DNA of 32,181 nt from Actinomycetes bacterium (lineage in GTDB: Bacteria; Actinomycetota; Actinomycetes; Mycobacteriales; Mycobacteriaceae): positions 1 to 32,181 of the forward strand of contig JAJYRZ010000007.1 of the NCBI GenBank assembly GCA_021793835.1, written 5' to 3'. Position numbers and translations under genes: made by a program. Below the pieces are notes generated by a model. The model had not been told where the DNA came from. It was given only the letters and a program-made list of their open reading frames with translations, and made no database searches. Below, piece after piece: positions 11,674-14,261 of this stretch. Position 1 is the stretch's first letter. Every line of letters starts with the position of its first letter.

Positions 11674-11699
11674 TACAGTATTAGGTAAGGCTAACTTAC
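11674..11699 (+). promoter_or_regulatory. Promoter and DtxR/IdeR-type iron box of the siderophore-interacting gene
   Basis: TTAGGTAAGGCTAACTTAC at 11681-11699 agrees with the 19-bp iron-box consensus TTAGGTTAGGCTAACCTAA at 16 positions. A TANNNT -10 (TACAGT, 11674-11679) sits directly in front, so a bound regulator would cover the transcription start. Iron repression of the next gene is the expected outcome. Confidence 0.8.
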
Positions 11700-11714: not shown

Positions 11715-12497
11715 GTGGCACGTGCTGAAACGACGCTGGTCGTCCTGCGTACCGAGCGGCTCTCGCCGGATCTGGTCCGGGTCCATCTCGGCGGTCCGGG
11801 GCTGGCGGACTTCCAGCCCAACGGTTTCACCGATGCGTACGTCAAGCTCGCCTTCCCGGGCGCGGACGGCGAGGATCCGGTGCTGCGCACCTACACCGTG
11901 CGCTCCTACGACCCGCAGGCCGGCGAGCTGGCGATCGACTTCGTCGTCCACGGCGACGCCGGCGTGGCCGGTCCCTGGGCGCGTGAGGCGCGCGAAGGGC
12001 AGACCCTGGTGCTGCGCGGCCCCGGCGGGGCCTACCGGCCCGACCCGGACGCCGACTGGCATCTGCTGGCCGGCGACGAGTCGGCGCTGCCCGCGATCGG
12101 CGCTGCGCTCGAGGCGCTCGGCGCCGATGCGCGCGGTCAGGTCTTCGTCGAGGTCTCCGGTCCCGAAGGTGAGATCGCGCTGCCCGCACCCGCCGGGGTG
12201 GAGGTGACCTGGCTGCACCGCGGCCACGCGGCCGCCGACGCGCCGGAGGATCGGGCCGGCCGGCAGGCGCCGCTGGTGTCAGCGGTGCGCGAGGCGCCCT
12301 GGTGGGGCGGACGCGTCCAGGTGTTCGTGCACGGCGAAGCCGAGGCGGTGATGAAGGGTGTGCGGCCCTACATCCGGCGCGAGCGCGCGGTGCCGGCCGC
12401 CGACGCCTCGATCTCCGGCTACTGGCGCCGCGGACGCACCGAGGAGGGCTTCCGGGTGTGGAAGCGCGAGCTCGCCGTCGCCGAGGCGCCCGCCTGA
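11715..12497 (+). CDS. Siderophore-interacting protein (FAD-dependent ferric-siderophore reductase)
   Basis: 260 residues. The start is GTG 11715 with GGAGG six bases upstream. The N-terminal half is a FAD-binding barrel with RTYTVR at 58-63 and the family signature FVVHGDAGVAGPWA at 76-89. The C-terminal half is the NAD(P)H-binding SIP domain, with LLAGDESALPAIGAALEAL and the terminal ISGYWRRGRTEEGFR. Such enzymes reduce the iron of imported ferric siderophores so it can be released in the cytoplasm. The iron box directly upstream supports this role. No siderophore biosynthesis or permease gene is in the window, so the substrate is unknown. The gene converges on bacterioferritin, with a strong palindrome between. 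Confidence 0.9.
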   Translation: MARAETTLVVLRTERLSPDLVRVHLGGPGLADFQPNGFTDAYVKLAFPGADGEDPVLRTYTVRSYDPQAGELAIDFVVHGDAGVAGPWAREAREGQTLVLRGPGGAYRPDPDADWHLLAGDESALPAIGAALEALGADARGQVFVEVSGPEGEIALPAPAGVEVTWLHRGHAAADAPEDRAGRQAPLVSAVREAPWWGGRVQVFVHGEAEAVMKGVRPYIRRERAVPAADASISGYWRRGRTEEGFRVWKRELAVAEAPA

Positions 12498-12593: not shown

Positions 12594-13064
12594 TCAGGCC
12601 TCGATCTGCTGCGCCAGGTAGCGCTCCTCGCCCAGGTTCTCGATGAGCTGGAGCTGGGTCTCGATGTAGTCGATGTGCTCCTCCTCATCGGCGAGGATCT
12701 CCTCGAAGATCCGGGCGGAGGTGATGTCGCCGACCGTGCGCATGTGCTCGATGCCCCGGCGCAGTCGATCGACCGCCGCGACCTCGATCTCCATGTCGGC
12801 CTGCAGCATCTCCACGATCGTCTGCCCGATCGCGATGGTGCCCAGGCGCTGGTAGTTCGGCAGTCCCTCGAGGAACAGGATCCGCTCGGTGAGGGTCTCG
12901 GCGTGCCGCATCTCGTCGATCGACTCGCTGCGGGTGTAGGCGGCGAGCTTGGCCCAGCCGCGGTCCTGCTGCATCTTCGAATGCAGGAAGTACTGGTTGA
13001 TCGCCGTGAGCTCGGCGGTGAGCTGCTCGTTGAGGAACTCGATGACCTTCTTGTCGCCCTGCAT
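12594..13064 (-). CDS. bfr: Bacterioferritin
   Basis: 156 residues, the full family length. All diiron ferroxidase ligands are present: Glu18, Glu51, His54, Glu94, Glu127 and His130. The haem ligand Met52 (DEMRHAE) is also present. It should assemble into the 24-subunit haem-containing shell that oxidises and stores iron in the cytoplasm. Bfd, the ferredoxin that reduces stored iron for release, is encoded just upstream on the same strand, so the pair is probably one transcript. The start is ATG 13064 with AGGAGGC upstream. There is no encapsulin-loading peptide at the C-terminus (it ends LAQQIEA), so it is not obviously cargo of the encapsulin found further on. Confidence 0.96.
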   Translation of the reverse strand: MQGDKKVIEFLNEQLTAELTAINQYFLHSKMQQDRGWAKLAAYTRSESIDEMRHAETLTERILFLEGLPNYQRLGTIAIGQTIVEMLQADMEIEVAAVDRLRRGIEHMRTVGDITSARIFEEILADEEEHIDYIETQLQLIENLGEERYLAQQIEA

Positions 13065-13117
13065 GACGCCTCCTGTGTGCCGACGGTGTCTAGGTGCCTC
13101 ACGCGTGGCCGGAAGGG

Positions 13118-13315
13118 TCAGCCGGCGATCGGCAACTCCATCGTGCCATCGTCGACCGGAGTGCTCAGCACGATGGCCTTGATCCGGTGCACGCAGCGGC
13201 CGCAGTCGGTGCCCGCCCCGCAGGCCCGACCGACCTCATTGACCGATCGGGCGCCGTCGCGCACGTGCTCGACGATCTCGTCGACGGTCACGCCGCGGCA
13301 GATGCAGGCATACAC
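13118..13315 (-). CDS. bfd: Bacterioferritin-associated ferredoxin (2Fe-2S)
   Basis: 65 residues. The four cluster ligands are in the family arrangement: Cys4 and Cys6 (MYACIC) and Cys38 and Cys41 (DCGRC). An extra Cys32 is present. Bfd docks on bacterioferritin and passes electrons to the stored ferric mineral so iron can leave. The start is GTG 13315 with GGAGG nine bases upstream. The gene ends 53 bases before bfr. The paired iron-box-like sites 69-113 bases upstream indicate iron control of both genes. Confidence 0.93.
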   Translation of the reverse strand: MYACICRGVTVDEIVEHVRDGARSVNEVGRACGAGTDCGRCVHRIKAIVLSTPVDDGTMELPIAG

Positions 13316-13383
13316 GTCAGGGGACCTCCAGCTCCAGGGGTGCCCGCCGTCCGATGCACTGGCGCCGAACGGCGGCGGTAGCT

Positions 13384-13428
13384 AAAGGTTAGGCTGCCCA
13401 AACCCATTAGTGCAATAGGCTTGCCTAT
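13384..13428 (-). promoter_or_regulatory. bfd-bfr promoter with two iron-box-like sites
   Basis: On the minus strand a -35 TTGCAC (13415-13410) and a -10 TAACCT (13391-13386) are 18 bases apart. The plus-strand sequence 13384-13402 (AAAGGTTAGGCTGCCCAAA) matches the iron-box consensus at about 14 of 19 positions and covers the -10. The palindrome ATAGGCTTGCCTAT at 13415-13428 lies just upstream of the -35 and resembles the box core. Binding by an IdeR/DtxR protein is inferred. Confidence 0.6.
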
Positions 13429-13445
13429 GTGATTTTCGTCTCACC

Positions 13446-14261
13446 TCAGTGGCGCGTGTGGCGATCGCGTGGCGGCCAGTCCTCGTCGTCGATCTGGGTG
13501 TAGACCTCACTGCCGCGGATCGGGCGTCGCCGGGCGCGGGTGCCGGGGATGCGCCCGGCCAGGTCCGACAGCGGCACCACGGCCGCGTTGAGCACCTGCA
13601 CCGCGTCTTGGAGGCGATCGATGGTGTCGCCGAGTGCGACCAGCTGATCCAGGGTGCCGCCTTCGGCGGTGAGCTTCTCCAGAAAGCCGCCCTCGGCCAG
13701 CAGGGTCTCGGCCAGCCCGCCCTCGGTCAGCAGCCGGTCGATCGGCCCGCCCGGTTCGGTGAGCCGGTCCAGCGCCCCGTCCTCGGAGAGCATGCGGTCC
13801 AGCGGGCCGGCCTCGGCGGTGATCCGGTCGAAGGCCCCGCCCTCGGACAGCAGTCGCTCCAGCGGTCCGCCCGGGGCGATGAGCGTCTCGAGCATCCCGC
13901 CCTCGTCGAGCAGCCGGTCGATCGGCCCGCCGGGCTCGGTGAGCCGGCCGGCCACCCCGTCCTGGTCGAGCATGTGGTCCAGGGCGCCGCCCGGGGCCAT
14001 CGCCTGGCCGAGCGGACGGTCGTCGGCGGTCACCGCGGCCAGACGCTGGAGCAGTGCGACGGGCCCGTTGGGGTCGGACAGCAGCTTGGTGATCTGCTCG
14101 GCCAGCCCGCCCGGGCCCACGAGCGCGGCGAACTGGTCGGCATAGCCGCCCGGCCGTCGGATCGGCCCGCTCGGCGCCGCGAGCTGACCGATCTCCAGGG
14201 TCGCTCGGGTGGCGGCGACCGAGAGCCGGTACGGCAGCGTCAACACGTCGGTGAACCCCAT
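13446..14261 (-). CDS. Unknown protein built of thirteen 10-residue Gly-Gly repeats
   Basis: 271 residues from ATG 14261. I do not recognise a family. Residues 1-88 include an amphipathic start (LTLPYRLSVAATRATLEIGQL) and two weaker repeat-like stretches. Residues 89-218 are thirteen decapeptides with no insertion or deletion. The consensus is (E/P)-G-G-x-(L/I)-(D/E)-R-L-(L/T)-x, with GG or a variant at 91, 101, 111 and so on to 211. A hydrophobic segment (VQVLNAAVVPLSDLAG) follows, then a basic patch (TRARRRPIRG) and an acidic end. There is no signal peptide or membrane helix. TAACCT at 14274-14269 followed by seven bases and the ATG suggests a leaderless message. bfd lies 130 bases downstream on the same strand but has its own promoter. 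Confidence 0.75.
   Translation of the reverse strand: MGFTDVLTLPYRLSVAATRATLEIGQLAAPSGPIRRPGGYADQFAALVGPGGLAEQITKLLSDPNGPVALLQRLAAVTADDRPLGQAMAPGGALDHMLDQDGVAGRLTEPGGPIDRLLDEGGMLETLIAPGGPLERLLSEGGAFDRITAEAGPLDRMLSEDGALDRLTEPGGPIDRLLTEGGLAETLLAEGGFLEKLTAEGGTLDQLVALGDTIDRLQDAVQVLNAAVVPLSDLAGRIPGTRARRRPIRGSEVYTQIDDEDWPPRDRHTRH
13608..13997 (-). repeat. Thirteen in-phase 30-bp coding repeats
   Basis: This region encodes residues 89-218 of the unknown protein. Each unit is 30 bp, degenerate at DNA level but exact in length. The closest pair is the CTCGGTGAGCCGG-type unit near 13759 and 13939. It is a protein repeat and not a spacer array. Confidence 0.85.

Follow-up and report, generated by a model that had tools for sequence, protein, structure and literature searches.

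The promoter region of the bacterioferritin genes bfd and bfr in the DNA analyzed here (termed the window: a 32,181-nucleotide stretch from a member of the Mycobacteriaceae) carries two predicted sites for the iron regulator IdeR: a 19-bp iron box covering the predicted -10 element and, immediately upstream, a half-site that touches the predicted -35 element and would be expected to hold a single IdeR dimer. Similar site pairs occur in related genera and hence the two-site layout looks real; support for the pair, as judged from sequence, comes from this conservation in other genera rather than from the window's own genus. A candidate CRP/GlxR-like site, missing from the first-pass annotation of this DNA and thus new here, adjoins the half-site. 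The reading favored below, which stands at about an even chance of being correct, is that iron exerts net repression on bfd-bfr and that the predicted upstream site reinforces it.

Two predicted IdeR sites in the gap upstream of bfd

The two genes are separated by 53 nucleotides, bfr lying downstream of bfd (Table 1). Both sites fall within a 130-base gap (positions 13316-13445, minus strand) between bfd and the gene upstream of it, whose stop codon occupies positions 13446-13448 and for which no Pfam or NCBIfam match was found. On the other side of the locus, a perfect 54-base palindrome at positions 12518-12571--the sole even palindrome of at least 18 bases in the window--lies between bfr and the convergent siderophore-interacting-protein gene and is possibly a two-way terminator.

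Table 1. Genes, predicted promoter elements and candidate regulatory sites at the bfd-bfr locus.
Feature	Position	Strand	Details
bfd, bacterioferritin-associated ferredoxin	13118..13315	-	65 aa, GTG start; Pfam Fer2_BFD 48.3 bits (cut-off 26)
bfr, bacterioferritin	12594..13064	-	156 aa; TIGR00754 218 bits (cut-off 125.55)
Siderophore-interacting-protein gene	11715-12497		SIP and FAD_binding_9 domains
Iron box before siderophore-interacting-protein gene	11681..11699	+	27.2 bits, window rank 1; 3 mismatches to consensus
Predicted iron box (19-bp IdeR/DtxR operator) covering predicted -10	13384..13402	-	PWM 15.75 bits, window rank 2
Predicted upstream iron half-site ATAGGCTTGCCTAT	13415..13428	-	PWM 11.25 bits for 13415-13433, window rank 4
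CRP/GlxR-like site TGAGA-N6-TCACA	13428..13443	-	One mismatch to TGTGA-N6-TCACA; adjoins half-site
Predicted -35 TTGCAC (alternative TGCACT, one base on)	13410..13415	-	
Predicted -10 TAACCT, 18-bp spacer	13386..13391	-	TAACCT invariant in 5/5 genus members

Sites were scored with a matrix derived from all 40 predicted Corynebacterium glutamicum DtxR sites in Table 1 of PMC1382209, and not just from those with measured effects. Only four positions in the window reach 11.2 bits: 11681 (27.2), 13384 (15.8), 13389 (13.4) and 13415 (11.3); shifted registers aside, the next site scores 8.1 bits, and 20 shuffled windows contained no match of at least 11.2 bits. The predicted box at 11681 serves as the window's internal positive control for the IdeR regulon. 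Because an IdeR orthologue is encoded in the genome (1fx7, 353.7 bits; NF053665, 332.7 bits, with a cut-off of 290) and an iron box precedes the siderophore-interacting-protein gene, IdeR is the likely regulator of the bfd-bfr stretch. The same genome, which is 81.3% complete, also encodes a CRP/GlxR orthologue (3h3u, 436.6 bits) and two further DtxR-family proteins (L002:1024-1692 and L003:1015-1695), whose best match is an MntR model at scores far below its cut-off.

The downstream box, AAAGGTTAGGCTGCCCAAA, shares 14 of 19 bases with TTAGGTTAGGCTAACCTAA (counted by eye) and matches TTAGGTTAGSCTAACCTAA beyond chance, its score being reached in 96 of 20,000 dinucleotide shuffles of positions 13316-13446. 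A second, overlapping register lies 5 bp on (13389-13407; 13.39 bits, window rank 3), as expected of two overlapping dimer sites, and the CTAACCT part of the box is invariant in all five genus members. The first-pass annotation had proposed two iron-box-like sites at this promoter, one of them over the -10; both are indeed present (13384-13402 and 13415-13428), and the former does cover the -10 of the predicted promoter (13391-13386). That promoter, with a start guessed to lie near 13379, is a weak-consensus call, inasmuch as a stricter sigma-70 consensus scan of positions 13050-13600 found neither promoter nor terminator. Folding of the 31- to 72-nucleotide leaders of five genus members was no better than that of shuffled sequences, and therefore no leader hairpin or attenuator is claimed.

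The upstream palindrome had been placed just upstream of the -35; it does lie against that element but, overlapping the predicted TTGCAC by one base (ATAGGCTTGCCTAT; half-site center at about -42.5 from the guessed start), it is not wholly upstream of it. It has a perfect AGG-N4-CCT core (six of six core bases), a half-site score of 15.8 bits and, by eye, eight of the ten fixed bases of the one-dimer IdeR consensus TTAGGNNNNCCTAA. The other half of the upstream site offers no second dimer site, with mismatches at five of six core positions and a score of 3.3 versus 15.8 bits. A one-dimer site of this type has a precedent in Saccharopolyspora, whose IdeR is reported to bind a half-site as a single dimer, at about 78 nM, TTAGGNNNNCCTAA being the consensus proposed (PMC8464063).

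Alone, the upstream site is weaker evidence than the pair: its score is reached in 665 of the 20,000 shuffles and both scores together in a single one. Of 2,000 shuffles of the intergenic sequence, 21% contain a perfect palindrome with 6-bp arms and a gap of at most 6, the site's own shuffle p in the survey described below is 0.045, and within the whole assembly ATAGGCNNGCCTAT (with at most one mismatch) matches once, at this position, as does, also once, a reversed control pattern. A scoring half-site is absent from all four congeners, L008 having only a degenerate form. These frequencies and this absence are what would be expected if only the -10 box works and the palindrome is here a chance match or a decayed site; the perfect core, the location against the -35, the second boxes in eight other genera and the rarity of both scores together speak against that explanation, which is accordingly regarded as improbable.

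In three of the congeners (L009, L010 and L011) a different palindrome is found at about the place where the window has its half-site; this reads GCCCATACTTgttaAAGTATGGGC in L009 and is near-identical in the other two. If the palindrome in the window were the site of another regulator--an MntR-like paralogue, for example, or some other factor--then the two additional DtxR-family proteins would supply candidates, and the occurrence of a different palindrome in three congeners would be understandable. That the palindrome fits the one-dimer consensus of PMC8464063 at eight of ten fixed bases, and at all six core bases, makes this very improbable.

Recurrence of the two-site layout among relatives

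Bfd was searched for in 61 genomes and in 251 family genomes, with 40 loci from the latter taken out of a longer list of matches. Outside the set L043-L121, 84 bfd loci were processed, and the 60 with bfr downstream on the same strand constitute the denominator for the counts given here. The other 24 loci were left out (in 23 of these no bfr was found and in one it lies on the opposite strand); in 4 of the 24 a box scoring 12 bits or more was seen. Excluded before the count were L013 (no bfr was found and the Bfd match had an internal stop), L036, L040 and L041 (a Bfd-like stretch inside frames of 652-878 aa), and the duplicate loci L042, L122-L125, L129, L131, L133, L134, L136 and L139-L142. 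The set L043-L121, consisting of 79 loci from Streptomyces and kin, was kept out of the two-site counts: in 75 of them bfd and bfr are on opposite strands, 74 of these 75 having a box that scores at least 12 bits, and the rest are three loci with bfr on the same strand (two from Rhodococcus) and one that is too short.

In each of the 60 bfd-bfr operons examined, a box scoring at least 11 bits begins 28-91 nucleotides before bfd. A second box was defined as one scoring at least 8 bits, with p ≤ 0.05 in 200 shuffles, 14-50 bp upstream of the first; such a box occurs 19-34 bp upstream of the first in 37 of the 60 operons, that is, in 37 of 53 within the family (9 of 16 genera) and, by the same definition, in none of the seven outside it. 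Three genera, denoted here g23, g9 and g27, have a second box in every operon examined (11/11, 14/14 and 6/6, respectively), g9 and g23 together accounting for 25 of the 37 two-site operons. Rhodococcus aetherivorans belongs to g27: the 120 bases immediately upstream of bfd in L185 recur in L052. The window's own genus has a second box in one of five operons, the remainder being spread over eight other genera; none was found in the nine family operons from g2, g14, g15, g17, g25, g26 and g31. A different tandem layout, in which two iron boxes lie just 15 bp apart, was observed at L027, L029 and L031; the tandems of L027 and L029 fall outside the second-box definition, and at L031 no bfr was found downstream.

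The two members of a pair mostly differ in kind. A perfect AGG-N4-CCT core is present in 28 of the 37 upstream sites (in six of the nine genera) as against one of the 37 downstream boxes, and in 6-19% of background 19-mers of similar score. By the 19-mer score, on the other hand, the downstream box is the higher in 36 of the 37 two-site operons, and its best half is the better one in 31 of 37. The window departs from this latter trend: its half-site, at 15.8 bits by the one-dimer score, exceeds either half of its downstream box, at 11.8 and 8.6 bits.

The positions of these sites relative to the predicted promoter are also shared, in part. In g9 and g23, 23 of the 25 operons have, among their two best promoter pairs, a TTG -35 separated by 17-18 bp from a -10 that lies inside the box. 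This TTG is formed by the final three bases of the upstream box; thus, in these two genera the upstream site covers the predicted -35. The spacing between boxes is shorter in g27 (25-26 bp) and in g22 (19 bp), so that the tie of the upstream site to the -35 is not general. Moreover, a rival -10 (TAAGGT or TAAAGT) scores in L008, L010, L011 and some g27 operons, for which the geometry would shift.

An alignment of the window's genus has as its invariant blocks TGAGA and ATCACA, TGGGCA and CTAACCT (the box), and TGGAGG ahead of the start codon; the half-site falls outside these blocks. The first two blocks belong to the CRP/GlxR-like site. The CRP/GlxR consensus of actinobacteria is TGTGA-N6-TCACA, and it is on the strength of this consensus that positions 13428-13443 are presumed to be a CRP/GlxR-like site. 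With at most one mismatch the consensus occurs in 12 of the 60 promoters, compared with 0.17% of shuffled stretches: in five of five members of the window's genus (the window included), in six of six g27 operons (five of them perfect) and, farther upstream, in one case from g24. It is absent from the other 48 promoters, including all those of g9 and g23.

Repression, activation or both

According to the reading favored here, iron-loaded IdeR would read the bfd-bfr operator at two places. At high iron, IdeR on positions 13384-13407, as one or two dimers, would block RNA polymerase, while one further dimer would occupy the half-site at 13415-13428, against the -35. Because the half-site both overlaps the -35 and adjoins the CRP/GlxR-like site, the dimer bound there would strengthen the shut-off by keeping polymerase and activator off the promoter. 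When iron falls, IdeR would leave and CRP-cAMP could support the promoter; Bfd and Bfr, presumably co-transcribed, would then be made together, so that stored iron is released and rebalanced. In the window, 14 bp separate the center of the CRP-like site from that of the half-site and, given this distance, joint binding at the two may be hindered.

The first-pass annotation had taken the -10 site to be repressing. A box over the -10 is, according to PMC10317159, the described geometry of IdeR-repressed genes, and the claim is credible to that extent, though the -10 in question belongs to a predicted and weak promoter. The upstream site had been supposed to activate, and both sites together to switch with the iron level. 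In its more explicit form this idea has IdeR on the half-site activating at moderate iron through contact with polymerase and IdeR on the -10 box repressing at high iron, so that the promoter would behave as a band-pass. Several features are consistent with it: the half-site is centered at about -42.5 and touches the predicted -35; activation of Corynebacterium diphtheriae ftn is reported to require no more than a DtxR site one base away from the -35, several sites being needed for optimal expression (PMC13001254); within the window the half-site outscores either half of the -10 box; and Mycobacterium tuberculosis BfrA is made at both low and high iron (PMC5218490). More generally, multiple boxes tend to be found at IdeR-activated genes and a single box at repressed ones (PMC10317159), so that several boxes and a site next to the -35 tend, by analogy, to fit activated genes and to count against repression.

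Physiology points the same way. Bfr is the only Ferritin-family (PF00210) match in two near-complete congeners, G001 and G003, which would need iron storage at high iron and for which a high-iron shut-off therefore looks odd, as storage itself would be shut down. (In both, the predicted core promoter of the gene for this bfd-linked Bfr has an iron box on it or close by. At other ferritin-type genes of the genus--L200 and L201 in the window's own genome and the four congener loci L206-L209--no iron box above 5.4 bits was found.) Against the switch stands the relative strength of the sites: since the -10 box is the stronger in most two-site relatives, IdeR should there occupy it before, or at the same time as, the upstream site, and the promoter should be shut. 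It is for this reason that net repression is favored over a switch. Nor was any other, unblocked promoter seen between the downstream box and bfd in the window, where this region was inspected by eye only. The switch is thus considered possible but doubtful, and activation from the upstream site, though the site has the geometry that activates C. diphtheriae ftn, is conjectural.

Relation to known systems

That IdeR controls bacterioferritin genes, that it activates or represses according to position, and that M. tuberculosis bfrA has two promoters is known (PMC9132128, PMC5218490, PMC1382209, PMC10317159). What is new relative to the literature matches listed is the predicted and recurrent occurrence of a one-dimer half-site next to the -10 box at bfd-bfr, together with the adjoining CRP-like site: none of those matches (titles and starts of abstracts, supplements excluded) concerns an IdeR half-site or a CRP site at bfd-bfr, and none pairs a CRP/GlxR site with an IdeR half-site.

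The layout resembles several described systems in part. In C. diphtheriae ftn, as here, a DtxR/IdeR site lies directly by the -35 of an iron-store gene and more than one site is present; there, however, DtxR sites 1-3 are all described as upstream of the promoter, activating in high iron (PMC13001254), whereas here the predicted -10 is covered by a second box, a half-site takes the upstream position and the operon begins with bfd. Likewise, at ftn, dps and sdhCD of C. glutamicum, iron-store genes whose expression falls in a dtxR mutant, the DtxR sites are upstream of the -35, but PMC1382209 lists one full-type box for each and, in its account of these sites, reports none over the -10. The nuo half-site of Saccharopolyspora erythraea (C23S1) is, like the present one, a one-dimer palindrome of the TTAGGNNNNCCTAA type (PMC8464063); here, by contrast, a box over the predicted -10 accompanies the half-site, and second boxes of the half-site type recur across genera. 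The CRP-like site is of the same TGTGA-N6-TCACA type as other actinobacterial CRP/GlxR sites, in five of five and six of six operons of two genera.

Mycobacterial bacterioferritin had been invoked as the precedent for activation. The shared element is IdeR control of bacterioferritin, with M. tuberculosis BfrA produced under both iron regimes. According to the accounts in PMC9132128, PMC5218490 and PMC10317159, however, M. tuberculosis bfrA is served by two promoters, Plow and Phigh (PMC5218490), and not by a single promoter with a pair of boxes, bfd is divergent, and bfrB has four upstream boxes and is subject to Lsr2 antagonism; here, bfd and bfr are in tandem on one strand behind one predicted promoter. 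M. tuberculosis bfd is itself reported to be IdeR-regulated and up in low iron (PMC5218490, citing Gold 2001).

A 2023 review of IdeR regards the role of half-sites and the mode of activation by IdeR as open questions, and half-sites in other species as something to be investigated (PMC10317159). The half-site-type second boxes described here, whose core is perfect in six of the family's genera, answer the question of occurrence in silico, and the bfd-bfr layout offers a simple reporter test of half-site function, with possible cAMP input as an extra. A more speculative proposal, and a rather unlikely one, is that a single IdeR dimer on the half-site would act as a class-II-type activator, opposed by the -10 iron box and combined with the CRP site, so that bfd-bfr expression would be highest at intermediate iron, and then only if cAMP allows it. 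If class-II-type activation is true, then half-sites and IdeR activation--both of the questions raised by the review--would meet in one testable promoter.
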